In this document: piece by piece, positions 6,222-63,287 of the stretch
How the letters are laid out: every line of letters begins with the position of its first letter
Numbering within the stretch: position 1 is the stretch's first letter
Assembly (NCBI GenBank): GCA_028714815.1
Contig: JAQTLR010000001.1
Location: 124,001 to 188,000 of the forward strand
Source of the DNA: Candidatus Altimarinota bacterium
Lineage (GTDB): Bacteria > Patescibacteriota > Gracilibacteria > BD1-5 > UBA2023
Reading direction: 5' to 3'
Length of the DNA stretch: 64,000 nt
Notes under the pieces: model-generated
Database searches by the model: none
Seen by the model: only the letters and a program-made list of their open reading frames with translations
What the model was told of the DNA's origin: nothing
Made by a program: the position numbers and the translations under genes

Positions 6222-6360
6222 TAGAAGAACCTCAGGAATGACGGGCTTTTGTCGGGGACGGAAAAGAAGGAATTTTGAGATGATCTGAAATTATGAATAG
6301 ATGCTCGAATTTCGTGTGAATTTTGTACCAAATTTTATGCTCAAATCTCAACGGACGTTT

Positions 6361-6388
6361 TTGCAAAAACTAGGCTTTTCGGTATACT
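6361..6388 (+). promoter_or_regulatory. Promoter for the 82-aa membrane protein gene
   Basis: TTGCAA (6361-6366), 16-base spacer, TATACT (6383-6388). It closely resembles the promoter 412 bases downstream, including a TTTTCG stretch just before the -10 box. The gene-free stretch 6222-6360 holds nothing else I can recognise. Confidence 0.65.
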
Positions 6389-6401
6389 GTGTATATAAGT
6401 A

Positions 6402-6734: not shown

Positions 6735-6771
6735 AAATCCGCTATGAGCACCGAGCCATAGCGGATTTTCT
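6735..6771 (+). terminator. Intrinsic terminator
   Basis: AAATCCGCTATG (6735-6746) pairs with CATAGCGGATTT (6757-6768), loop of 10, followed by a T-rich run. It closes the 82-aa gene and insulates it from the next promoter, which starts two bases later. Confidence 0.85.
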
Positions 6772-6772
6772 T

Positions 6773-6800
6773 TTGCAAAAATGAGAGTTTTTCGTATAGT
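6773..6800 (+). promoter_or_regulatory. Promoter of the structured RNA / exported-protein operon
   Basis: TTGCAA (6773-6778), 16-base spacer, TATAGT (6795-6800). Transcription would start near 6807, exactly where the long folded RNA begins. Confidence 0.65.
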
Positions 6801-6806
6801 GCAAGA

Positions 6807-7044
6807 GCTTAAAACTCACATTTCTATCGTAACCGATTTTTTTTCGACAATTTTGTCGTAAATTTTCTGTATACGTGTGCTACAAAATAGGTGGGACGGT
6901 CCGATAATGCCCGTTTCCACTTCATTGTAGCAATACAGCGATTCGGTGATGGCTTTGTGAGTTTTAAGCGACCACTGCATGATTCGGATCGTCCTTCGTG
7001 TTAATTCCAAAAGGCGATTTCTGAATTTCAGATGTCGCTTTTTT
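6807..7044 (+). ncRNA. Candidate structured non-coding or leader RNA, family unknown
   Basis: About 238 nt between a promoter and an intrinsic terminator with no convincing reading frame. A perfect 12-bp outer stem joins CTTAAAACTCAC (6808-6819) to GTGAGTTTTAAG (6957-6968). Inside are a small hairpin CGACA/TGTCG (6845-6858), a two-part stem CTGTAT + TGCTACA (6867-6884) with TGTAGCA + ATACAG (6926-6938), and an apical stem GTGGGACGG (6891-6899) with CCGTTTCCAC. GGACGGTCCGA (6894-6904) can alternatively form 11 bp with TCGGATCGTCC (6984-6994), just before the terminator, so a switch between two folds is possible. A rod with an interrupted centre recalls 6S RNA in outline, but no conserved 6S sequence is recognised. 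It may be a free small RNA or an attenuating leader of the gene at 7066. Confidence 0.6.
7009..7044 (+). terminator. Intrinsic terminator or attenuator
   Basis: AAAAGGCGA (7009-7017) pairs with TCGCTTTTT (7035-7043 region) with one G-U pair, with an inner CTGA/TCAG stem, and the 3' arm runs into six Ts. It stands 22 bases upstream of the start of the exported-protein gene. Confidence 0.7.
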
Positions 7045-7065: not shown

Positions 7066-8169
7066 ATGAAACCAAAAGTATTACTATTTTTTACTTTAAT
7101 CGCTTCGATAACTTCATTGTCATCCGTCAGTGCAGCCGAACAACAGCGTCTTATTTGCGAGAAGAGTGGGACTGTATACGAACTTACACAAAGCGACCTA
7201 TCTATGGTATCTCGCGCCGTTACGAATGTGCAGAAAAAATGAAACAAATATCTCCCAACAATCGTATCACAATTACAGCGATATCGGAATCTCAAATTGG
7301 CAAACGATACTCGAATGTCCGAGATTTTTTCAAACATTATTTATCGTCTAAACGGCGATTTTGGAAATCTCACCCGGGATAATTCCGCTTCTGTAAATAT
7401 GGACGAGTTAAAGCGTAATGGGGTTGATTGGCTCGCGAATCTCACTTCTGACAATCTCCGTGCTATCGCGAATGATAAAGTAGCATCGAAGACGGCACTT
7501 GACGCAATCCCTGATCTATCAAAACAGCTTATGTCCAGATATGAAAGTACAGGCAAAGAAACCGATAAGATTTTCGTGAGAGTGAGTGATTTTGCTCTTC
7601 TTATGAAACTCGAATTTCTGAGAACCGCATTGAAGGGGAATGAAAAAGATCTTTATGACAGCAATGATATTGAGCGCACGCTCATAAGTCTCTCGGAAAT
7701 GGAGCGGAATATTACTGTTGGTCGGCTTAAATACCAGAAGTACGACCTGGTTCTTTCCAATTCTGGCGAAGGTAATCTCATAGTGTTTACCGATGGGCCT
7801 TGTGCTTCCATCGGGATGATTTATCAGAATGCTTCCGATGAATGAAGTTCAGATGATTACAAGGCAATTATAAAATCCGGGATAGAAGATGCGATCAAAT
7901 GAAAGCTCCCCACTTCGCAGCTCCCACAATCACTTCGATCTTCATTGGATAGGCTAGTAAATGATGAAACCAAAGGGACTGAACTTCTTTCTGATCATCC
8001 GGAGTTAAAAAAAGACGAAATCGCCACGATCCGAGAATGGCTTCATTCTGCATATCTGAGCGCTCTTTTGAGCGAAGTGTACGATCATCTTGATAGTTCA
8101 AGCGGAAAAGAGAAGGAGTTTCTCAGCCTCGTCCAAGATTATTTCCGTGGATATCTCTACGGTGGGTAA
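7066..8169 (+). CDS. Exported protein of unknown function
   Basis: A 367-aa protein with a clear signal peptide (MKPKVLLFFTLIASITSLSS, cleavage likely after SVSA near residue 24). The mature part is mostly helical; residues about 28-120 resemble an extended helical bundle, and two cysteines (near residues 31 and 246) could pair after export. Three TGA codons are read as glycine. First of five consecutive genes for exported, membrane or lipid-anchored proteins. The segment DIERTLISLSEMERNITVGRLKYQKYDLVL resembles a segment of the next protein, so the two may be distant paralogues. The RNA element upstream may control it. No known family recognised. Confidence 0.75.
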
Positions 8170-8234: not shown

Positions 8235-9527
8235 ATGTACAAGAAAACCATATCTTCGATGCTATTACTTCTGCTTATTTCTACAAACGTAGCAAACGCA
8301 TATGTTCTTAACGATCGGGAAAACACGATTGTCGACCGAGCATATACCCGCATTGAGAGCCTCATAGCGAAGAAATGAGAATCTGTGCGCAGATCTGTCA
8401 TCGTGCAGCTCAACAAACTCAGGAATGAGAAATTCGCGAACAACGAGTGAATGAATGCCATCATCCGAACGACCGCAGAAAGAATTGAAGCCAATACGAA
8501 GACTCCGGCTCCGACCGTGACAGAAAAAACTTCCGCATCCGAAACATGATCGCCTATCCCATCATCGAATTTGGTACAATCCCTTCTATCTGATGGAACT
8601 AAGGCGCTATCAAAACTGAATATTGAAGATATGAAGGATGTATTGGCAGACAATGAATACTATCGTGCTGTGCCAAGCATCTATGCAAAGCTTGAAGCAG
8701 ATTTCTCTTCTGTCTGTTCACAATCTTCTGAAACAGTTGAAACAATAACCTGTCCTCTCGCGGACGCGAAGACCTGGATGAAATTCGTCTACCTCCATAC
8801 ACTTACCATTGAAAAATACTCAATTGAACCAATGGAGCAGAGATTTGCAACCTCAGCACTTCCGGATATCGAATACGTATTAAATGGGCTTGAAAAGGAG
8901 GATATCGATTCCCGTTCGATTCGCTATGGAGCATACGATCAGAATCTGATTTTCAATATCTGGAATGTCACTCCCATCTGGGATATGAGCAATGGAAGTG
9001 CCAATCATGCAAAGATCACCTTTCAACTTGATCCAGACAAAGGCAAGCATTTGGAACTTTTCGTAAAAAGGAAACTTGGAATAATCACAAAGGCCCCATA
9101 TGAATTTACAATCCCATGACATGGTCCCTATTCTCAATACTCCCCAGGTCCAAGCACTGGAATCCAGCCAAGTACCGGAAATTATTACCCAGTGCCCGAA
9201 CATGCGCATAGGACCCCGAGAAAAGATACAATATGGACTTGCGATGAAGGATATTACCGCAAGCCAAAAACTATGAAAGCATCAGGAATGTGTCTTCCAG
9301 ATGACACTCCGATTACCGATGATTCGAAGGAGTTATACAAACCAATACCAACGTCGATTGATCCGAAATACATGATGAAGTCTATGGGCGATGGGTCCAC
9401 TGACTTTCCGATAGGAGGTTACGGTAGTGTTCCGCAATCCGGCCCAATGCAGTACAAAAAGCTTGATTGTATCAATCTGTTTGGATGCAAGAAGGGTGAG
9501 AAAATTGATGGAACAATCGAAAATTAA
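8235..9527 (+). CDS. Exported protein with Pro/Gly/Tyr-rich C-terminal region
   Basis: A 430-aa protein with a signal peptide (MYKKTISSMLLLLLISTNVANA, cleavage near residue 22). A helical N-terminal half (residues ~25-290) carries a Pro/Thr/Ser linker near 90-105 and a segment (DIEYVLNGLEKEDIDSRSIR) similar in layout to the upstream exported protein. The last ~135 residues are rich in Pro, Gly, Ser and Tyr (for example GPYSQYSPGPSTG) with four cysteines in the final 110 residues, suggesting a disordered or wall-associated tail with disulfides. Four TGA codons are read as Gly. The gap from the upstream gene is 65 bases. Function unknown. Confidence 0.75.
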
Positions 9528-9568
9528 ATAAAAAAATACCTTAATTTTAACTTCTTACCTTTCTTTTT

Positions 9569-10537
9569 ATGGCAAAAAATGAATCCAGGAGCAATACGGA
9601 TACTCCCAATACAATAATCATCGAGACAAAATCATCCACTGGGCAGATAGCCGGCATCTTATCCATAGTCTCAGGAATTGTGGGGCTATTTGTCCTCTGA
9701 ATCGTATTTTTTCCACTCTCCCTTATTCTCGCGATTGTGGCTCTGTTTAAGCGAAACTATCTCCTCGGAGGAGTTGGAGTGTTTCTTTCTATCATCGTAG
9801 CAATTACTAGTCCTTCGATATGGATGATTTTGTGAGCTGCAAAAATCTACAATACCGAGACAAAGAAGCAGGAGCAGATTCAACGAGTCGCTCAGAAAAT
9901 CGTTGCAACAAAAAAGCAGGAAACGATAGCAACTCCACCAAGTGCCGAAGTGAACTTTTCCAGAGTCGCTTCAAAGCTCGGAACGAGTGCCCTTGGAACT
10001 CCGGAGAGAAGTTATTCGGATACGCTCAAACTTGCAACCAATATGATGCAGAACTGAGGGGATTACCTCAATCAAGCAACTCCGATGGACCTCAGTATCA
10101 TCGCGTATGATCCATGGATTTGATCCGGCATCCAAGGAATCCATGAACAATTTGCTCGTGCAATCAAGGAAAACCGTACGGAAATCCAAAAATTCCCGAT
10201 TGGGGGAAGTGGTCCAAATATCGAGGCCATAATCGGAAAATACCAATACAATTGAACGGGTGTGGTTTTGAGCTTGAAGAATGTATATCTCGAAGTAGCA
10301 TCATCTGCGATTAAAAAGTTTGTTGCAACATCTCAGATGTTAAATGAATCGGAGGAAGAGGTTATTAAACAATCCCTCAAAGAACTCAAAGAAGCGATAG
10401 TGGCATTACAAGTCGGAACCACTCCTTCTGGTCCAATTCCTGTCATTAACTATGGAAAAGATGGTAAGATAGCTAAAAATTCATCGATCAGTATATCTAA
10501 ATTTCCGAATGGAACATATGGAATCGTGATCAAGTAG
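9569..10537 (+). CDS. Membrane protein with two helices and a large extracytoplasmic domain
   Basis: A 322-aa protein. Residues ~27-50 (IAGILSIVSGIVGLFVLGIVF) and ~60-90 form two adjacent hydrophobic segments, followed by a charged coiled stretch (NTETKKQEQIQRVAQKIVATK) and a ~210-residue soluble domain with YDPWIGSGIQGIHEQFA and other glycines. Five TGA codons are read as Gly. It starts 41 bases after the preceding gene and is followed by a lipoprotein gene, suggesting one envelope-related operon. The two-helix anchor plus soluble domain is not diagnostic; I do not recognise the family. Confidence 0.72.
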
Positions 10538-10564
10538 CCTTTTATCATTTAATGTGTAATCACT

Positions 10565-11311
10565 ATGTCAAAAAATCAAAAGATATCATTTCGAGGTACA
10601 TCCATATTTATCATAATACTCATCGCCTTCATTATCGGAAATTTGTTGACCTGATGTTCGAAAGAAGCAGTTCAAAGTGATAATGCTCCACCCACAGCCA
10701 AAACCACGACCATTTCAACTTCCACCGGCAGTACTATCACTAGTACATCATCCATAAATACGCAGAGTGGAAAGAATGAAATAGAAAAATTCAAAGGTTC
10801 TACAAAGGAATCGACCACATCAGTGCGATCGAAAATCGAACAATCCACAGCTAAATCAGGAACGGCAAAAGATGCTTTCTCGGCACTTTGAAAGTCCTTG
10901 TCGGTTGAAGATAATAAGGATGAACTCATAAAAATCCTCGAAGCCGAGGCGAGCGCTCCCGGGAAGACTTCGGATTGGGACTCTGGCTATGATGAGACAT
11001 TCGCTCCGGATCCGCTCGATGCTATCTATACATTCTTTCGATTGGGCAACGGAAAACCGCTCCAAGAAGGACTATTGACGATATTGAGAGACGGAATCCG
11101 TATGGATAAATGCTTACAGAACGGAAATACATGAAGAACTTTCCTCTGTCGATGGGATGATACTGAAATCATTACCGTACAGAAGTTCCTCCAAAGTCCA
11201 ATATTCATTCGCCCTGGATATGCTCCAAAACAATACAAGAACTCCAATAGTGGCGTGACCGTTCTTATAGAATTTTCGAGTGGCGCGACAATCATAACTA
11301 TGCCCCGGTAA
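10565..11311 (+). CDS. Lipoprotein of unknown function
   Basis: A 248-aa protein with a type II signal peptide: after FIIILIAFIIGN comes LLTGC, in which the glycine before the lipidated cysteine (residue 36) is encoded by TGA. A Ser/Thr-rich linker (residues ~40-100) separates the lipid anchor from a C-terminal domain (about 130-248). Three TGA codons in all. The lipobox is direct evidence both for export with lipidation and for UGA being glycine. It follows the two-helix membrane protein by 27 bases and likely belongs to the same operon. Confidence 0.78.
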
Positions 11312-11398
11312 ATATTTATCAATGTATCCGCCTCTCTGCTGCTTTTAGAAAATTTGATTGAATAAGGAACTCTTAAATACTAACGAATTTCATCAACT

Positions 11399-11833
11399 AT
11401 GAAAAAGATTGTAATCTTAGCAACGCTATCAGTACTCCTATCGAGTACGGCGTTTGCGGTTGGCAACAACAGTTCGGACGTTTCCGATCACGGTCAAATG
11501 ACTCTGTCGGGGGCGACTATTGCTTTTACCTCAAACACAAGAGCAGATGTATTGATCAACGAGCTTAATTATGAATACGAGAGGATCGAAGCGAATAATT
11601 CTTTCGAGGATGTCGATGGAATTACCGATCCAGCCGTAGAAACAATACTCTCCACGATGAATCTTCAAGATATAGAGTGAATGTCCTGAACCGAACTTGA
11701 TATACATCTCGTTTCAAGATTCAAGATTATCGACACGCTCGACCGTTATATACACACACTTCCGGAATGAGATCGAAAGATATTCTTCCAAAATGCCGAA
11801 GAGTATTCAAAATCTTTGATGGCATTTGATTAG
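11399..11833 (+). CDS. Small exported protein
   Basis: A 144-aa protein with a textbook signal peptide (MKKIVILATLSVLLSSTAFA, cleavage after residue 20). The mature 124 residues contain no cysteines, are acidic and mainly helical, and end KSLMAFD. Three TGA codons lie in the second half. Last gene of the exported-protein series: a terminator follows 62 bases downstream. No family recognised. Confidence 0.72.
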
Positions 11834-14677: not shown

Positions 14678-16828
14678 ATGCACACAACTATCTCAGAATA
14701 TATTAGCTCGAAAGGTCTTACTTTTCGACAAAACGGAAAAGAACTCGTAACTCATTGTATTTTCAATGATTGCGATAAGGATAGCACTGGAAATGAAGCC
14801 CATTTGTATATCAGCGCTGAAAATGGATTATTTCATTGTAAAAAATGCGATGCAAAAGGGAATATTGTTACCATCGCAAAACATTTTGGAGATGACTTGT
14901 CAAAACTCGATGTAGAGGGGTACGAGCCACCAAAAAAGATAGCTCGATCGAAAAAGCCTGTCGATTCACAGAAATTTTCCGAAGAACTGATTTTAATCTG
15001 TCACAAAGCGTTACCTGACAATATCCGTCAGTATCTCAAAGGTCGTGGTATCTCCGATAAAATGATCGAGGAAAGAAAGTTGGGGTATGGGAATTTCTAT
15101 TGAAGCAATTGGATCACCATACCAATTCGTGATGAATCTGGATTGCCGTTATTCTTCAAACTTCGTCGAGATCCGACCGATGAAAAATGACCAAAATACA
15201 TTGTCTATCCAAGAAAGATGGAAGCCATGCTCTATGGAATGGATAATCTCAATCCATGAGAAGAATTAACCGTATGCGAAGGAGAATTCGATCAAATGAT
15301 TCTTTCCGATCATGGAATTCCCGCTGTAACATCGACCGCATGAGCTGGAACTTTTAAGCAGGAGTGGTTGGAGAAATTTGAATCACTCAGAAGGATTAAC
15401 ATCATCTTCGATAATGATCCACCTGGAATAACGTGAGCGGCCCATTTACAGGAAAAAATCCATGCCCGTTATCCGGAGAAAGAAGTAATCATCGTTCATA
15501 TTCCCGAATGGAAGGGTAAGGATATTACGGAATACGCAATGGCCTGATGAATAATGGAGGATCTATGGCTCGGATACAGCGAAAAGGCAGAAGGTATAGA
15601 TTTCAGCAGGTTTGCTCCCATGAATGCATCGGATATAGCTCGGGTCCTCTCCCTCTCTATCGAGCATGATGATATAACGAAAACTATCGTGTTTCTCGGC
15701 ATGCTTTCGGCTTTCACAAATGACTCTCAGTTCAATATTCTCCTCAATGCTCCATCTTCGTCAGGAAAATCCTACATACCGTTGGAAGTATCAAAGTTAT
15801 TTCCAGAAGAGAGTGTCTCGAAATTGCAATATGTTTCGCAAAATGCCTTCTTCCATGAAGAGGGGAAATACGATAAGGAGGAAAATTGCAGGCATATATA
15901 CCTTGATCGAAAAATTCTGATTTTTATTGATCAGCCCCGACTGGATCTCTTGGCAAGGCTTCGCCCTATGCTATCGCACGATGAAAGAGTATTGGTCAAT
16001 AAGATTACCGATAAAAATGGCCAATGAGGGAATATGACGAAAACCGCGAAGATTCATTGATTCCCTGTGGCAATATTCTGTACAGCAACTTCCGTATTGG
16101 ATGAACAGGAAGCGACAAGATTCTTGCTCCTCTCCCCGGAAATCTCTCAGAAGAAACTCGTGAGTTCCATAAAGGCTAAAATATCGAAAGATTCAGATAA
16201 GAAACGCGTAGATTGAGTAATCGATGCGAATGTAGAACGAATATTATTGAAAGAGAGGATCGAGATAATAAGGAATGCTCATATCTCGGATATATGCATC
16301 GAAAATACGAAAGAGATAGAACGGATGTTCTTGGAGTGAAAACCTCATTTGCAACCACGTCATCAGCGTGATATCGGGAGATTTATCGGACTTATTAAGG
16401 CATTCGCTCTATTGAATATGCCATTTCGGAAACGGGAAGGAGATGTGATTTACGCAGATGAATCAGATATCACCGAAGCTTATGCGATATGGAAACAGGT
16501 TGATGCCGTGCAGGAAAGAAATATTTCCCCATATCTCCTCGATCTTTATAGATGAGTTGTACTTTCCGCATATGTAGAATCAAACATCAAGCGTGGGAAA
16601 AAGAAACCATCAGAGTTTCTCGGTATATCGAGAAAAGAAGTCTACTCCATGTACTACCGTATTCATGGGAAAACCATTTCCGATGCCAAATGGAGACAGG
16701 ATCTTGAATCAGCACTCATTGAGTCCGGTCTCATTTCCACGGAAAGGGATGGGAAGACCATAATTATAAGCCCAATGAATCATGAAGATGTTGAAATCTT
16801 CCTGCAAAAGTGAGAAATTTCGGTATAA
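14678..16828 (+). CDS. Primase-helicase-like replication protein of a mobile element
   Basis: A 716-aa protein joined from many fragments once TGA is Gly. The N terminus carries a zinc-binding motif (Cys 27, 32, 54, 57) like the CHC2/DnaG zinc ribbon. Residues ~195-290 form a TOPRIM domain: VCEGEFDQM with the catalytic glutamate near 201, and IIFDNDPPG with the DxD at 244-246. The C-terminal half has Walker A APSSSGKS (358-365) and a Walker B-like stretch KILIFIDQP, then a helicase-style core and a winged-helix-like tail. The layout matches phage and plasmid primase-helicases that start and unwind replication. It sits just before two serine recombinases. It uses UGA heavily, so the element has long lived under this code. 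Confidence 0.82.
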
Positions 16829-16829
16829 T
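16802..16829 (+). promoter_or_regulatory. Promoter for the recombinase genes
   Basis: CTGCAA (16802-16807), 16-base spacer ending TTTCGG, TATAAT (16824-16829). It overlaps the last codons and stop of the primase-helicase gene and lies 50 bases before the first recombinase start. Confidence 0.6.
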
Positions 16830-16878
16830 TACCGTTTGAGTTGTTGAAGTTATTTTTAATTCATTTTTTTATCATACT

Positions 16879-17715
16879 ATGTCTACTAATGTTACTACGG
16901 ACAAGAATTTGTCCACAAATGGAAAGTTTTACCTCTACGTTCGAAAATCGAGCGAGAGTGAGGATCGACAAGTCCAATCAATTCAAGACCAGAAGGATTA
17001 TTGGATGCGGCGTTCTGTGCAGGAAGATTTCGAAATTGTGGGAATGTACGAGGATGAGAAAACTGCAAAAATGCCGAATTGTCGTCCAGGATTTAAGAAG
17101 ATGTGCAAGGATGTCGAGACTGCAAAAATAGACTGAATTCTCTGCTTGAAACTCGATCGTCTTTCGAGGAATCCAGTCGATACTGGTTATATCCAATACA
17201 TGTTACAACAATGAAAGATCGAACGTATTATTACGAGCGGTAGAGTGTATTTTCCAGACGATGCATGACTTATATTTAGCGTAGAAACAGGAATGGCAAA
17301 TCAATACATACTCGATCTGACAAAGAACACAAAACGCTGAATGCTGGGTAAAGTTCATAAGTGATGGTTGCCATGAGTTGCTCCGAGATGATATGCAAAT
17401 GACAAGATGAGTAGAACGATTACAACAGATGCTCACGAATTTCGAGTAATAAAACGATTGTGGGAAATGGTGCTGGATTGAGAGTCTCCCGGTAACGCCG
17501 CAAAGCTCATATCACAAGCAATAGGTATTTTAGGCTTGGGCGATACAACGAGAGGCATATCATCTGCAAATGCTTACCAGATAGTCCGAAATCCGTTCTA
17601 TGCGGGAAAAATCCTCTATAAAAATGAGATATTTCCTGGAAAGCACGAACCGATGGTATCTTGGGATGATTTCCAAGAAGTTCAAAAGACACTTAAAAAG
17701 AGGGTGGTAAGATAA
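16879..17715 (+). CDS. Serine recombinase, short form lacking the zinc-ribbon region
   Basis: A 278-aa protein of the serine recombinase (resolvase/invertase) superfamily. Residues ~17-160 are the catalytic domain: YLYVRKSSESEDRQ with the nucleophilic serine near residue 24-25, and ILCLKLDRLSRNP, the conserved D-R-x-S-R active-site segment. Residues ~165-275 form the Recombinase DNA-binding domain (WLPGVAPRGYANDK ... NPFYAGKILY). It ends at TAA (17713) where the downstream paralogue continues with a zinc ribbon and coiled coil, so it is probably truncated; it may still bind and cut DNA or may regulate its partner. Nine or more TGA codons. DNA identity with the next gene is high over the catalytic domain, pointing to tandem duplication. 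Confidence 0.85.
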
Positions 17716-17728
17716 ATTTGGAAGATGT

Positions 17729-17759
17729 GGTGGAATTATTGATACAAAAAGATTCCACC
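17729..17759 (+). repeat. Inverted repeat between the two recombinases
   Basis: TGGTGGAAT and ATTCCACCA flank a ~13-base loop just after the short recombinase gene. There is no strong U-tract. It could be a weak terminator or a recombinase-binding dyad. Confidence 0.4.
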
Positions 17760-17814
17760 ATCATCTCACCAAAAATAGATAAACCATTTATTATTCATTA
17801 AAACCATAATTCAT

Positions 17815-19635
17815 ATGTACGAAAATCGCTATGCGAGCAAAGATATGCTCATGAACAAGAAGTTTTACCTCTACGTTCGAAAATCGAGCGAAAGAGAAGA
17901 TCGACAAATCCAGTCCATTCAAGACCAGATAGATTACTGGACCAAACGAGCAAAGGTGGAATGATTGCAAATCGTTAAAATATACGATGATGAGAAGTCG
18001 GCAAAATCACCAAATCGTCGTCCAGGCTTCAAAAAAATGTGTGAAGACTTGGAAGCCTGAAACATAGGTGGGATTCTCTGCTGGAAACTTGATCGTCTTT
18101 CGAGAAATCCAGTTGATACTGGTTATATCCAATACATGTTACAGCGATGAAAGATCGAACGTATTATCACAAGTGACAGAATGTACTTCCCAGAAGACTC
18201 CTGACTGATTTTCAGTGTGGAAACAGGAATGGCTAATCAGTATATTCTCGATCTTTCAAAAAACTCGAAACGCTGACTTCAAAGTAAGGTGAATAAAGGG
18301 TGGTTTCCAGGGTTGGCACCACAAGGGTATATAAACGATAAAGTAGGGAAGACTATACTTCCAGACCCTGATCGTTTCGATCTGATAAAGAAGATGTGGG
18401 AAATGCTTCTCTCGGGTTGTTATTCGCCACAGAAGATATTGGACATAGCTACCGAAGAGTGGGGATACAGGCAACTTAAAGGACAGAAGAAACTCACGCT
18501 CGGTGGTTTCTACGAAATACTTAGAAATCCTTTTTATACGGGGAAGATGTTATATAAAGGGGATATTGCCCAGGGGAGTCATACTCCCATGATAACATGG
18601 GATCAGTTTCTGAAAGCGCAAAGTATTATTGGGTCTACTCGAAAGAAGAAGAAGGACATATTCGGGATAATACAGACGGAGCGTCCATCGAAGAAAGAGT
18701 TTGCATTTACTGGCGCGATAGTGTGCGGAGAGTGTGGATGTATGGTAACGGCTGAACAGAAGACAAAAACCCTTGCAACCACAGGGAAGCAGGCATCGTA
18801 TATTTACTACCGCTGTACACACAAGAAGGATACGTCACTTCTTAAAAAGTGTGCGCAGAAGGGTTGCCTGCCAGAAAGCGTTCTGAATGAGCAAATAGCA
18901 GAGATCCTTGCAAGTCTCGAAATTCATCCCGATTTTTTTGCATGGGCGAAGGAAGTTCTGCAAAGAAGATATAGTGAGGAGAACCAGGGGAGAGAATTGA
19001 TTTATGAAAATATCAAGGGTGAGATCGATAACTGTAACAAAAAGATGAAGAGACTCGTTGATATGAAGGTGGCTGGGGAATTCGAGAAGACAGAGGACGA
19101 TTACTTTGTTCGCATGAAGACAGCAGAGAGTGAGCTGAGTGCTTTACAGATACGTAGACAGGAGTTGGAGAAAGAGCAGACCGACTGGAATGCTCTCATG
19201 GTAGATACATTCGATTTTGCCAAAAATGCCCTCAAAGCTTTCAAAAATGGGGACATCGAGACCAGAAAGATTATCTTTCGATCTCTTGGCTCGAACTGGA
19301 CTTTGAAAGATAAAAAACTGCAAGCCAATCTGAACGATTGGCTTTTGCCGTTACAAAAGTCTCAAAATTCCAACTCCCTCATTTCCATAAGGTTAGAACC
19401 GACTAAAAAAGGCATCAGGTTGCGGAAACTTGATGCCTCTAATGATAGATTTCAACTATGGTGGCGAGGGGCAGAATTGAACTGCCGACACACGGCTTTT
19501 CAGGCCGCTGCTCTACCACTGAGCTACCCCGCCGGGCGACAGCCATTATATAGAAAACTGCAGGAATGCAAAAGATTTTTTATTTTCCTTTTTACCATCC
19601 TTTCGCCTTCACCCATTTTTCGATCAACCCAATAG
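17815..19635 (+). CDS. Large serine recombinase; frame runs on over the antisense of tRNA-Phe
   Basis: A 606-codon frame encoding a large serine recombinase. Catalytic domain at residues ~15-160 (YLYVRKSSEREDRQ, catalytic Ser near 27; LDRLSRNP near 95), Recombinase domain at ~165-275, a zinc ribbon (CGECGCM ... CTHKK ... KKCAQKGC, ~305-360) and a long coiled coil (~390-480) as in phage and integrative-element integrases. From about codon 530 the frame crosses the tRNA-Phe terminator, the whole tRNA gene in antisense, the tRNA promoter, and then the end of dnaE. The biologically meaningful protein therefore probably ended near residue 530-540; the tail is likely created by integration next to the tRNA. 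Seven TGA codons, all early. Confidence 0.85.
19405..19437 (-). terminator. Terminator of tRNA-Phe
   Basis: Read on the minus strand, GGCATCA and TGATGCC form a 7-bp stem followed by TTTTTT (19405-19410), 22 bases after the tRNA 3' end. It lies inside the recombinase frame. Confidence 0.85.
19459..19533 (-). tRNA. tRNA-Phe (GAA)
   Basis: 75 nt on the minus strand with encoded CCA. Acceptor GGCGGGG pairs with CCTCGCC, D-arm AGCTCAGTGGTAGAGC, anticodon stem GCGGC/GCCGT with loop CTGAAAA (anticodon GAA), and T-arm GGCAGTTCAATTCTGCC. A consensus promoter lies 12 bases upstream and a terminator 22 bases downstream. The gene is intact next to the recombinase, so if an element integrated here it restored or spared the tRNA. 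Confidence 0.96.
19545..19571 (-). promoter_or_regulatory. Promoter of tRNA-Phe
   Basis: On the minus strand TTGCAT (19571-19566), 15-base spacer, TATAAT (19550-19545), placing the transcript start a few bases before the tRNA 5' end. Confidence 0.7.
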
Positions 19636-57579: not shown

Positions 57580-59340
57580 TTAGTCAGATTTTGAAAATAC
57601 TTGTTCATATATATATTTTGCCAAATAATAGTCACTAAAACTCCTGTGAATAAATTCAATCGTGGAATTGTTTACATCCTTGTAAGTAACATGAATATTA
57701 AGCAGTCATTCAAGTATTTTTTGATTCGAGTCCCAGAGGCTGGACTGATCAATAGTCCCATAGGTTTTTAGATAATCCTTTATTTGCATAATGGAGACAT
57801 ATAGCAAACGTAATTTCCACATTGATTTTGCAACGTCTCATGATAGGAGATCAAGATTTTTGGCATATTCTTGTTTCTCGAAATTAAGGGAATCCTTTTT
57901 GACTTTTAATACCTGCTTTTCATAATATTTTTCGAGGAAAAAATTATAAAACTCGGCTTTAGATTTTAAATCTATCTTCAATACTTCATTTTTTAACTCA
58001 AGACTAAAAAACATATTTAATATTAGAGGATCCTTCAGTATATGATTTTTCTCATATCAAATATTCAGGGTATCTATCTGTTGAAAAATTTCTTGAATCT
58101 CCTTTTTCTTATTCGCATCAGCGCTTGTCAGTAAATTCATTTTAAAATGATTTATCTGTTCCTGATTAAAGGATAAGAGCTTATATTCTTGGATATTCTC
58201 TCTATCAAATCATAAAGATTGAGGCAATAATGGTCTTGAAGTTATAAGAATTCTTAGCCCATTGTTTAGTTTATTGTTTATTGCTTGAATATTTTCGTTT
58301 AAAAAAGATAGGAATTGTGATGAAAGTCCAATGGAAACATTGCTATGGCTTGTCATTAGAAATAACTCGTCTAGTCAATCTAGTATTAACAACAGTGGCT
58401 TACTGTGAATGAAATCCTCTGATAAAAAGCTTAGATCATTAATCGTTTTCTCACTAAAGTATCGTCAAAATACTCATAATATATCTATGCTTTTATTTTT
58501 TAATATATCAGAGATAGCATCGATTGACAAGCTATCCCTTAGCTTAATAACTACTGTATTTATCTTGGATTGTGGTCTGTTAGATTTATTTAGTAGATAG
58601 TAAGAGAAAGAACTCTTTCATACTCCAGGATCTCAGTGTATTAAGTATATATTTGCCTTATCCTGTCTCCCTGTAGTAATGATTTCTCTATATAAATCAT
58701 CGACTTTTATGCTTGAATCACTTTTATTATAAGTTAGATTATGTGGAACATACAAATCTTTGAGTGGATAATCAAGAAATATATCGTTTTTGTTTATAGA
58801 TAACCAATTCTCATTAATGGTTTTATTGAGATAATTACCATAGTTTGTATCTAGCTCTCTCAGACTCTTGAAATCTTTTAGAAAGAATAATCTCGCAAGC
58901 TTTTCGAAAGTATTCTCTATGGTATATAGAATGTCAGAACCGGAAACCCAAGCAATACTGATTTTACTTTTTGCAGCCAAATCTTCAATTTCTTTCTTCT
59001 GTTTATTGTCCGTCCAATCTTTATTTATATACACGTGTATAACTTTAAGTTTTGTATATTGTCAGGCGATCTTTCGGTTGCATGCAATTTTTATTGAATG
59101 TGAAATATTACCATAATCGATTTCATTTTCAAAGAATTTCGCTTGCAATGAAATAAAATCTCAAGTTTTTTTATTTTTGATAGGGAAGATTTCTATTCAT
59201 GGATTGTTATGTTCGATATGCAATGAGGTATAGTCTAGTTGATATGTATTCATAAAATAGTGTATACACAGTTGCTCAAATGCCTCTCTTTTGTTTTCCT
59301 TATTTTTATAATTGAAATCCTCCCAAGTCACCTTATACAT
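57580..59340 (-). CDS. STAND (NACHT) NTPase with N-terminal nuclease-like domain; C-terminal sensor cut off by TAA
   Basis: A 586-aa product of an interrupted gene. Residues ~18-105 look like a PD-(D/E)xK nuclease: FEQLCIHYF, PGIEIFPI and FISLQAKFF (E...QxK). The NTPase domain has Walker A GDPGVGKSS (236-244, two glycines from TGA), Walker B LLLILDGLDEL (316-326) and a sensor RILITSRP (~370). A helical region follows to EFIHRSFSDYYLAKYIYEQV at ~560-580, the end of a NACHT helical module. The gene then meets TAA, while pentapeptide repeats continue in frame. Proteins of this design (Avs and other nuclease-NACHTs) sense phage components and activate the nuclease. Without the sensor it may be inactive, or constitutively poised, or expressed by readthrough. 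Confidence 0.8.
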
Positions 59341-59464: not shown

Positions 59465-60076
59465 TTACTCATCCAATACCACTGTCTCATCTTTGTCTGA
59501 AAAATGGATGGAAGTTATGTAGATTTCTTGAATCTTTGTAGCATTTGGAAAGAGGGATAACTGCCAATTTCCATAATTTGTTTTTCAGCTTTTGATTACT
59601 TCTTGAGTAACTCAAGCAAAATATTTCTTTCCACTTATTTGTTCGGAAAGCACTTGATTGTAATTGTCTGTTAGTTTCGCTCTAAAGGTATACGCGTCAA
59701 TACTTCTTCCTGTATCGTTTCTGACAGTAATGCTGATGTGAGGGAATCCATAAACATCAGCAACACCCTGTTCTATTATTTTTAATCATGCAAGTTTCTT
59801 TTTAATTTCGTCTTCTTTTACTTTGCTGGCATCTTCTATATTTGTTGTTGATATGTTTCCTCAAGAGCTAGATGTACTAGGTACACCATTGATAGCCTGA
59901 TTCATCCAGGATACTACTGATCAAAAAATAAACAAGACAAGCATTGTCATTAATATCGGATGTCTTGATCCCCAATCCCTTAAGTCATTCTTACAGTTCG
60001 GACAAACTTTTGCCATTTTTGGTATATCTGTAGTACAAAACTTACAACGCTTTGTATCAATAGCTCCTGATTCCAT
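59465..60076 (-). CDS. Zinc-ribbon protein with one transmembrane helix
   Basis: A 203-aa protein with a zinc ribbon at the N terminus (CKFCTTDIPKMAKVCPNCKN, Cys pairs near 11/14 and 25/28), a transmembrane helix (~42-62, ILMTMLVLFIFGSVVSW), a Ser/Thr-rich linker, and an extracytoplasmic or lumenal C domain (ISITVRNDTGRSIDAYTFRA), beta-rich, resembling DUF5067- or FxLYD-like immunoglobulin folds. Five TGA codons. ATG at 60076 is used; an in-frame ATG 14 codons upstream cannot be excluded. Proteins with zinc ribbon plus membrane helix and FxLYD-like domain are common and uncharacterised. Confidence 0.75.
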
Positions 60077-60134
60077 AATAGTGAGAATTAATAAATAAAA
60101 ATATTGGATTTTACTCATTTTTTGGAACCAAAAA

Positions 60135-60274
60135 ATGGGCGATTATCCTATAGTTGTCGCCAAACGAACTACCCTTTTCATTCTTCAATAAAGAGAAAGA
60201 TAGGTGGATAATCGCCCATCGTTGCGCTTTATTGAAGCAATGTAGAAATGAAAATAAAAAGTAATTCGTTTGGC
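60135..60274. repeat. Three crossing inverted repeats (pseudoknot-like)
   Basis: Arms: ATGGGCGATTATCC (60135-60148) with GGATAATCGCCCAT (60206-60219), perfect 14; GCCAAACGAACTAC (60159-60172) with GTAATTCGTTTGGC (60261-60274), 13 of 14; CTTCAATAAAG (60183-60193) with CTTTATTGAAG (60227-60237), perfect 11. The order A B C A' C' B' means A crosses B and C, which would be a pseudoknot if transcribed. Lies in the 445-base gap between the zinc-ribbon gene and hsdR. The remainder, 60275-60458, shows no other feature. Confidence 0.6.
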
Positions 60275-60458
60275 AGTCGTATAATAGCTATATACGGGAA
60301 AAATCAAAATTTAAATTCAAAGATATTGCTTTAAAATGAGGATTCTAGTAGTCAAAAACCATTAACTATCATAATGATAACTTTTGACATGAGAATGAGA
60401 TATTTAGATTAGATGTAAAAGTGTTTTTAGAATCATTTGAATCAGATAATCTCTGTTT

Positions 60459-60521: not shown

Positions 60522-63287
60522 ATGAGTCAAAATCCTGAACAAGAGGCTAGAAAAAACATAGATAATCTTCTCATACAAGCAGGATGGGTTATCCAAGACA
60601 TGAAAACCCTCAATATTATGTTTTCTCTTGGAGTGGCAGTTCGGGAGTTTCCGCTCGATAAAGGAAATGGTTTTGCGGACTATCTTCTCTATGTGGATGG
60701 TCGGGCTATCGGGGTTGTGGAAGCGAAGAAAGAATGATCCACTCTCGTTGGGGTAGAGACTCAGTCTCTCAAATATGCAACAGGACTTCCAAGCTGGGTC
60801 GATGCGTACCAGAACCCTCTTCCATTTTCCTACGAATCTACGGGGATCGAAACCCGTTTCACGAATTCTCTTGAACCTGATGCTAAAAGCAGACAGGTTT
60901 TTGCTTTTCATAGACCAGAGGCTCTTCTCGAACTTGTGAATAGAGAAAAACAGTCTATGGAGCTTATGCAAATCCTCCCTCCACTCGATGAAAAGTGACT
61001 TCGTAAGGTACAAATAGAAGCCATTAACAACCTCGAAAATTCCCTCAAAGCCGACAAACCACGAGCCCTTATTCAAATGGCAACAGGAACGGGGAAAACT
61101 TTTACATTCTGTAATATCGCATATCGACTCATAAAACATACAGGGGCAAAACGAATTCTCTTCCTTGTAGATCGCGGAAATCTTGCGAGACAGACCATGA
61201 AAGAGTTCCAGAACTTTAGTGTGCCTGGAGATGGACGAAAATTCACCGAGCTCTACAATGTGCAGAATATGGCGAGCAACAAGATAGATGAGGTCGCAAA
61301 GGTCACTATCTGTACGATTCAACGTATGTATAGTATGATTGCTGGAGTCGAGATGGAAGAAGAAATGGAAGAGAAATCCATGATTGATTTCAATATGGCC
61401 GACATGCTCAAATTGCCCGACGATGTTTCATATAATCCCCTCATTCCTATCGAGTCTTTCGACTATATCGTCGTGGACGAGTGCCATAGGAGTATATATA
61501 ATCTCTGGAGACAAACGCTCGAATACTTTGATGCGAAACTCATAGGACTCACAGCGACCCCATCCAAGCAGACCATCGGGTTTTTCAATAATAATCTCGT
61601 AATGGAGTACAACCACGAACGAGCGGTAGCAGATGGAATCAATGTGGACTTCAATGTCTACAAGATCGAGACTGCAATCGGGACACAAGGGTCCAAGGTG
61701 GAATCTGGATACTACATAGACAAGCGAGATAAACTCACGCGACAGGTTCGATATGAGCTCCTCGATAACGACTTTATGTACTCGGCAAAAGACCTCGATA
61801 GATCAGTGGTTTCGCTCGATCAGATACGCACCGTGATTCGAACCTTTCGAGATAAACTCCCGACAGAGATATTTCCAGGGCGAAAGGAAGTTCCGAAGAC
61901 CCTCATATTCGCAAAAGATGATTCTCATGCGGAGGATATCGTGAAGATTATTCGAGAGGAATTTGGGAAGGGAAATGATTTTTGTCAGAAAATCACCTAC
62001 AAGACTACGGGCAGAAAACCAGAAGACCTTATTAGTGCTTTTCGTAATGACTATAATCCACGTATTGCTGTGACGGTTGATATGATTGCAACGGGAACAG
62101 ATATCAAACCACTTGAGATAGTCTTTTTTATGCGTTCCGTCAAATCTCAGCTCCTCTTCGAGCAGATGAAAGGACGCGGAGTGCGAGTTATAGATGATAA
62201 TGATTTTCGTCAGGTAACTCCAGATGCAGAGCGGAAAACCCATTTTGTCATCATCGATGCGGTCGGCGTGACCGAGCAGGACAAGACCGATACCAAACCT
62301 CTCGACAAGCAACCGACCGCCAGCTTCGAGAAGATTATGAAGGTGATCAGTATGGGAAATACCGAGGAAGATATGCTCTCCACTCTCGTTTCCCGGCTTT
62401 CGCGTATTTCAAAATCATTTACTCCCGCACAGAACGAAGAACTTGAAACAATAGGAGGAATTGGAATCCATGAACTCAGCAAAAACATTATTGATGCTAT
62501 CGATGAGGACGTGATCCTCTCAAAAACGCTTGAAAATACTGGAAAGCAGGATATATCTGAACTCACCGAGGATGAGATTCGCAAAACACGCAAGGAGCTT
62601 GCGAAAATAGCATTGAAGCCCCTCTATAATCCTGCCTATAGAGATCGACTCATGGAGATCAAGAAGGACAACGAGCAGATTATCGATTCTGTGAGTATCG
62701 ATACACTCTTATTTTCAGGTCAGAGCGAAGATGCGAAGCTCAAGGCGCGAGGAATCGTGGAATCTTTCAAGCACTTCATAGATGAGAACAAGGATGAACT
62801 GGAACTCATCAAAACGTATTACAATCACTCGTATAAATCCAAGACTACATTTGAGGATGTGAAGAGTTTCGCGAAGAAGATCGACCAAATTCCCGCCCTC
62901 AGAAACCAATCCAATCTCTGGCGAGCCTATCGCACACTTATGCCCGAGAAAGTCATAGAATCCGATAGCTACACCAACGCTGATTATATCTCACTTCTTA
63001 CGTTTACTCTCCAATATATCGATACTCTGGAACCGTACCGATATCGAATAGAGTCGAGATTTGAACAGTGGGTGCAAGAGAAAGAAAAAGCGGGAGTTTT
63101 ATGGAATGTGGAACAACGAGAATGGCTGGAGATTATAAAGGAAGAAATTTCGAGCTCACTCTCTGTCTCGACTGAGGATTTTGAATATGGGAACCTACTG
63201 AAAAAATGATGAATTGGAGGGGCTTATAAGGTTTTTGGGAATGGGTTAAATGGAGTGATTGAGGAGATGAATGGGGTTTTGGTTTAG
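60522..63287 (+). CDS. hsdR: Type I restriction enzyme R (motor and nuclease) subunit
   Basis: A 921-aa protein with four TGA codons. N-terminal nuclease: FADYLLYVDGRAIGVVEAKKE (Asp53, E-x-K at 67-69), typical of HsdR PD-(D/E)xK. Helicase motor: Walker A MATGT GKT (186-193), DECH box (319-322), ATP-binding TATPSK and motif VI QMKGRGVRV. A C-terminal region (~610-800; YRDRLMEIKKDNEQIIDSV, SFKHFIDENKDELELI) matches the EcoEI-type R C-terminal domain. HsdR translocates DNA and cuts it at a distance. hsdM and hsdS are not in the visible part; they may follow downstream. The frame stays open past three successive TGAs near 63208-63213. Confidence 0.93.

Follow-up and report, generated by a model that had tools for sequence, protein, structure and literature searches.

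A predicted transcription-attenuator leader before exported-protein genes and its probable, though divergent, place in a large RNA family of Gracilibacteria that is apparently undescribed

The window, a 64-kb stretch of DNA from a code-25 bacterium, carries five same-strand open reading frames (ORFs; starting at 7066, 8235, 9569, 10565, and 11399) preceded by W1, a 238-nt element that follows a promoter-like sequence and ends in an intrinsic terminator. Gracilibacteria have a changed genetic code and almost no experimental biology; we know of no class of regulatory RNA reported from them so far. The parts of W1 and the genes behind it are listed here with the basis for each.

6773-6800 (+): promoter-like sequence, TTGCAA (6773-6778), a 16-nt spacer, and TATAGT (6795-6800); sequence
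6807-6820 (+): A5, 5' strand of the closing stem; sequence and fold, and the family's A stem covaries
6845-6858 (+): small hairpin CGACAATTTTGTCG on the 5' side of the large internal loop; fold
6893-6904 (+): B, 5' arm and loop of the apical stem, partner of B'; pairing
6956-6969 (+): A3, 3' strand of the closing stem, then GAC (GCGAC motif); sequence and fold
6982-6997 (+): B', partner of B or of the terminator 5' arm; duplex energy
7009-7044 (+): intrinsic terminator T2, whose 5' arm (C5) overlaps the partner of B'; energy and T-run
7066-8169 (+): first exported-protein gene, 22 nt past the terminator; ORF
8235-11833 (+): further putative operon genes (8235-9527, 9569-10537, 10565-11311, and 11399-11833), exported or membrane proteins by eye; ORFs

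Six nucleotides separate TATAGT from the first base of the closing stem, whose 14 bp are all Watson-Crick (GCTTAAAACTCACA, 6807-6820, with TGTGAGTTTTAAGC, 6956-6969); the first-pass annotation, which had called this a perfect 12-bp stem, was right about the pairing and slightly short on the length. Positions 6807-6969 (+) form a long hairpin that contains inner stems and, on its 5' side, a large internal loop, with an apical hairpin at the top, and the family's GCGA(C) motif is found at the end of A3 (TTTTAAGCGAC from 6963 on). The 238 nt fold at −84.1 kcal/mol, compared to −50.7 (SD, 4.3) for dinucleotide-shuffled sequences (z = −7.8; 0 of 200 shuffles), and the reverse strand folds less stably (−70.7 versus −84.1 kcal/mol). 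Sequence and fold thus agree with the earlier description of a folded RNA with promoter, inner stems, and terminator at 6807-7044. The 11-bp alternative pairing described at the same time was also confirmed: GGACGGTCCGA (6894-6904) can pair with TCGGATCGTCC (6984-6994), including one G-U, and one further pair extends the stem to 6893-6904 and 6984-6995. These are the only occurrences of the two sites within the 64-kb window when one mismatch is tolerated, and the interleaved A-B-A'-B' layout was not reached at this strength in any of 1,000 dinucleotide shuffles of 6807-7005. The terminator (stem 7009-7043; −16.6 kcal/mol; T6) lies 22 nt before the ATG at 7066 and therefore leaves no space for an additional promoter. 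No Rfam 15 family matches W1 at gathering score, and permissive E values gave only subthreshold matches.

By eye, each of the five ORFs shows a hydrophobic N-terminal or transmembrane stretch, in keeping with their earlier designation as exported-protein genes, and none has a Pfam match. Farther along, 14678-19635 contains two serine recombinase genes, the last of which enters a tRNA gene (19462-19533, −), and a primase-like gene with a Toprim domain; we read this region as an integrated mobile element, which may include the exported-protein operon. A search of the window for a matching att site found none.

BLASTN of W1 against 59 relatives returned short chance matches only and no nucleotide homologue. 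The adjoining PAP2 gene led to genome G004, in which a homologous exported gene is preceded, at the same position, by an RNA of unlike sequence that has a similar promoter and the same layout. Between G004 and G006, promoter plus RNA are 92% identical (L033 1017-1720 and L044 7290-7640), while the sequence upstream differs and the genes behind diverge from the start codon on; this pattern suggests that promoter and RNA up to the start codon may be exchanged as a regulatory module. A topology scan of 0.4 to 1.1 Mb of DNA yielded further strong cases (G004 C46, G005 C4, and a second copy in the window, W2). A covariance model built from W2 alone gave 15 matches in 386 relatives, one of them the reverse strand of W2, and the model rebuilt from 17 members (R2) gave about 80 matches in 41 of the 386 related genomes, representing 25 genera; a set of 380 genomes added a single match, from another class of the phylum. 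Family size is given here as about 80 R2 matches and about 90 copies overall, with 92 members aligned and 88 parsed; the copy number in W1's own genome is a lower bound. The window and the members' loci have no Rfam match at gathering score, and our searches of the literature on RNA in Gracilibacteria and CPR bacteria found no described counterpart, which bears out the earlier view that the RNA was previously unrecognized; this is apparently a large, undescribed RNA leader family of Gracilibacteria. A covariance search among relatives had been proposed as a check, and it revealed compensatory changes in the A and B stems of the family, although W1 itself has no direct homologue.

W2 is a typical family member.

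60134-60275 (−): W2, with A TGCCAAACGAATTACTTTTT, B GATGGGCGATTATCC, and B' GGATAATCGCCCATT plus a T-run; topology scan and covariance model
59465-60118 (−): zinc-ribbon-like ORF following W2, in which a membrane stretch is seen by eye (the start may be 60076)

Pfam gave no match for the ORF at 59465-60118 (−). W2 lies between a type I restriction R-like gene (60522-63287, +) on one side and, on the other, this gene for a zinc-ribbon-like membrane protein and a gene for a NACHT-type NTPase (57580-59340, −).

Covariation supports the family's structure. In a set of 17 distinct sequences, 98.5% of the A stem is paired and both-side changes occur at 11 of 16 pairs; the B:B' stem shows such changes at 8 of 13 pairs, and the covariation score is 0.461, versus 0.154 for shuffled and 0.09 to 0.11 for slid alignments. 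MAFFT alignments (all types; W1 plus G4b) are not structural and were left out of this analysis. In the A-stem columns of 92 members, G-U occupies 141 cells and A-C only 9, so that selection acts on the transcribed strand, with the proviso that the alignment was fitted to R2, a model that itself leans that way, though hardly so far. Parsed members, chosen for A-B-A'-B' by a permissive scan that left 4 of 92 unparsed, mostly have a −10-like box 3 to 10 nt (usually 5 to 6 nt) before A (83 of 88), GCGA at the end of A3 (82 of 88), and a T4 run at or after B' (70 of 88). An asymmetric 5' loop is present in 99% of members and the base of the A stem is near-invariant (TGCCAAA/TTTGGCGAC). Neither the sequence nor the size of the large 5' internal loop is constant. 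Copies from one genome have almost the same B' (8.9 of 10), but the variable part of A3 scores only 3.4 of 10, as dissimilar as between genomes, and differs even between tandem neighbors. We also tested whether the hairpin folds back into a pseudoknot that coexists with it and whose lower and upper helices match; helix lengths correlate negatively (−0.55) and lend this idea no support.

Family copies sit where leaders would be expected. Counting the last copy per site, 46 genes with a start no more than 145 nt downstream share the strand of the RNA and none is on the opposite strand, whereas upstream neighbors have random orientations (45 of 84); several members have a last terminator whose U-run directly abuts the start codon. 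The proteins encoded downstream include S-layer-domain proteins, prepilins, one with a weak match to a collar domain, and further exported proteins, as well as zinc-ribbon/TM2 proteins, EcoRI-type and other DNA methylases, and an HNH protein; the RNA family thus links surface-protein genes (S-layer, pilins, and other exported proteins) with DNA methylation. EcoRI-type adenine methylase genes lie directly behind the RNA in several families (L186, L188, L210, L224, L229, and L139, assigned by Pfam PF13651, and L218 and L230, assigned by sequence similarity). Two features fit poorly with a pure leader: tandem arrays (five copies in L217, 1-1440, at ∼265-bp spacing; four in L207; five in L202; genome G009), in which each copy has its own promoter (TATACT box) without an intervening gene, and the separate promoter for the gene in some members (G5b, G3b, G4g, and G61 types).

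How such an RNA might work is suggested by its pairing options: it looks made for turning its gene on or off through refolding during transcription. By sequence comparison, each family copy starts a few nucleotides after a −10 box and forms the long A5:A3 hairpin, presenting in its apical part a B strand complementary to the 3' tail, B', which sits just past A3 and the GCGA(C) motif. In most copies, B' runs into the U-run, and B:B' itself would be the first terminator. In W1, B, B', C5, and C3 would form a 1-2-3-4 chain, in which 1:2 plus 3:4 stops transcription and 2:3 permits readthrough, with the A hairpin deciding the availability of segment 1 (B). As long as the A hairpin holds B, B' would be free to pair with C5, allowing readthrough into the exported-protein operon (ON); once B captures B', the terminator would form and transcription would stop (OFF). 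The first-pass annotation missed this second partner of B', the 5' arm of the terminator, without which the attenuator logic of W1 would not work; the B':C5 duplex is predicted at −12.0 kcal/mol, a value equaled by 16 of 2,000 shuffles. The ON/OFF polarity of W1 and its trigger are what we infer from these pairings. Since the A fold beats the B fold by 11 to 13 kcal/mol, reaching the OFF state would take kinetic trapping or a factor. A small metabolite seems a less likely trigger than a protein or RNA that reads either the near-invariant A-stem base or the B/B' sequence conserved within lineages.

Many copies have a partner of B' or A3 further downstream, overlapping a second terminator before the start codon. 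A3 pairs with its own downstream sequence at −10.4 kcal/mol, versus −8.6 (SD, 0.21) with those of other members, and B' does so at −10.3 versus −7.8 (SD, 0.25); neither value was reached in 2,000 permutations, a comparison of 89 members that is not free of relatedness, since they share lineages. Mutually exclusive terminator and antiterminator pairings before the gene are hence predicted in W1 and statistically supported over the 89 members. Individual loci offer examples: L186 has ∼17 nt complementary to A3 in the stretch past T1, and in L200 and L192, where A is CCAGAA, the element before T2 is TTCTGG in place of TTTTGG. The switch would be carried by A5-A3-A''-A''' in one lineage and by B-B'-C5-C3 in others. 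The attenuator-like build with two exclusive pairings, proposed earlier from a single sequence, thus gains support from comparative data, namely, covariation in the A and B stems and the leader position.

Among the closest known systems are leader attenuators with anti-antiterminator, antiterminator, and terminator, such as the Bacillus subtilis rplJL leader (PMC4538822). Such leaders share with the present RNAs an exclusive 1-2-3-4 pairing chain whose last step is an intrinsic terminator ahead of the gene (in W1, B:B', B':C5, and C5:C3). In the family, however, the first segment is kept in the loop of a hairpin that is long, covaries, and has a stem private to the copy; the family also often has two serial terminators, precedes other genes, and has no known ligand or protein. 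The pan and STAXI motifs, tandem structured RNAs from bacteria and metagenomes, resemble the family in their repeated structured units, pan being found upstream of operons and STAXI near DNA-handling genes (PMC2864571); their structures differ from that of the family (a stem with bulged A residues in pan, a repeated pseudoknot in STAXI), and the members' loci have no Rfam match. Like 6S RNA, family copies have their own promoter, a long hairpin with a bubble, and a terminator, but they occur several times per genome, in leader position, and with a 3' tail complementary to the apical loop; 6S RNA was dropped, as the window and the members' loci have no 6S match at gathering score. A retron noncoding RNA was also dropped, since no reverse transcriptase is among the annotated neighboring genes.

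Whether W1 belongs to this family has to be judged from several features. R2 matches neither W1 nor G4b, although it matches the syntenic G4a and G6 (E = 6e-4 to 7e-4), and a covariance model made from W1 alone found only W1 in 386 genomes, with no convincing relative. W1 has the A-B-A'-B' topology, starts a few nucleotides after a −10 box, and has both a same-strand gene (22 nt to the ATG) and a downstream partner of B' (C5); directly after B', where a U-run would be typical, comes TCGTGTTAATT, and the terminator follows 12 nt later. Because R2 does not recognize it and no U-run follows B', we do not file W1 as a confirmed member. That W1 might be an unrelated attenuator-like hairpin merely resembling the family would agree with R2 missing it and the W1 model finding W1 only; we consider this quite unlikely, because promoter spacing, segment order, and the GCGAC motif all match the family, an R2-recognized RNA occupies the orthologous position in G004, R2 RNAs in G005 and G061 lie before members of the 7066 exported-protein family, which follows such RNAs at two loci in G004 as well, and G4b has the GCGAC...CTTCGTG 3' stretch in common with W1. 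Relatedness of W1 to the R2 family, argued from topology, promoter spacing, GCGAC motif, leader position, synteny, and downstream gene family, thus appears highly probable. We read W1 as a transcription-attenuator leader that acts in cis and that probably belongs, as a divergent member, to a new Gracilibacteria RNA family, with a probability of roughly 0.7; the attenuator claim is independent of family relatedness.

For the family as a whole, new cis-acting transcription attenuators are the best reading of the sequence comparisons. Each copy could instead be a free-standing small-RNA gene, acting in trans through the lineage-conserved B/B' and with the surface and methylase genes as linked targets; the gene-free arrays of up to five copies, each with promoter and terminator, the separate gene promoters of the G5b, G3b, G4g, and G61 types, and the preservation within genomes of B' and not of A all speak for it. 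Yet free-standing genes would hardly account for the 46:0 strand bias within 145 nt, for U-runs touching the ATG, for the lack of room for a promoter in W1 and others, or for dedicated downstream partners, and we regard this as an unlikely account. A metabolite riboswitch would share the leader position, an aptamer-like hairpin with an expression platform, and tandem copies, and the first-pass annotation had likened W1 to attenuators and riboswitches alike; the attenuator half of that analogy stands, but nothing points to metabolite binding, given 5' internal loops that vary in sequence and size. With loops so variable, the family offers no conserved unpaired pocket, and its downstream genes have no pathway in common, so that a riboswitch is very unlikely. 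Least probable of all, and to our minds scarcely credible, is a DNA-level element (inverton, attC-like site, or cruciform): strong inverted repeats and the apparent exchange of promoter and RNA between loci might bring one to mind, but the G-U excess over A-C, a promoter outside the repeats at fixed spacing, the terminators, and the single orientation relative to genes all count against it.

Tandem arrays, and conservation within genomes of B/B' but not of A, suggest a trans factor or RNA cross talk between leaders. A genome-wide RNA network, in which most copies have B/B' in common, keep private A stems, and depend on trans action or a dedicated factor, is a more tentative idea, which we think rather improbable. 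If it held, short terminated leaders and arrays would act in trans, or a dedicated factor would read B/B', and surface proteins and DNA methylation might be coordinated or alternated in these presumably host-associated cells. This pattern of a private lock (the A stem) and a shared key (the B strand) is to us the most interesting point; it bears on which signal refolds the leader. R2, with its strong covariation, can be used as a model in searches.

A promoter-like motif that contains A- and T-tracts, TTTTGCAAAAA-N-GAG-TTTTT-N-GTATANT, recurs in the window at 6359-6389 and 6768-6807 and in L033 at 1017-1056; it precedes a small membrane ORF as well as the RNA.
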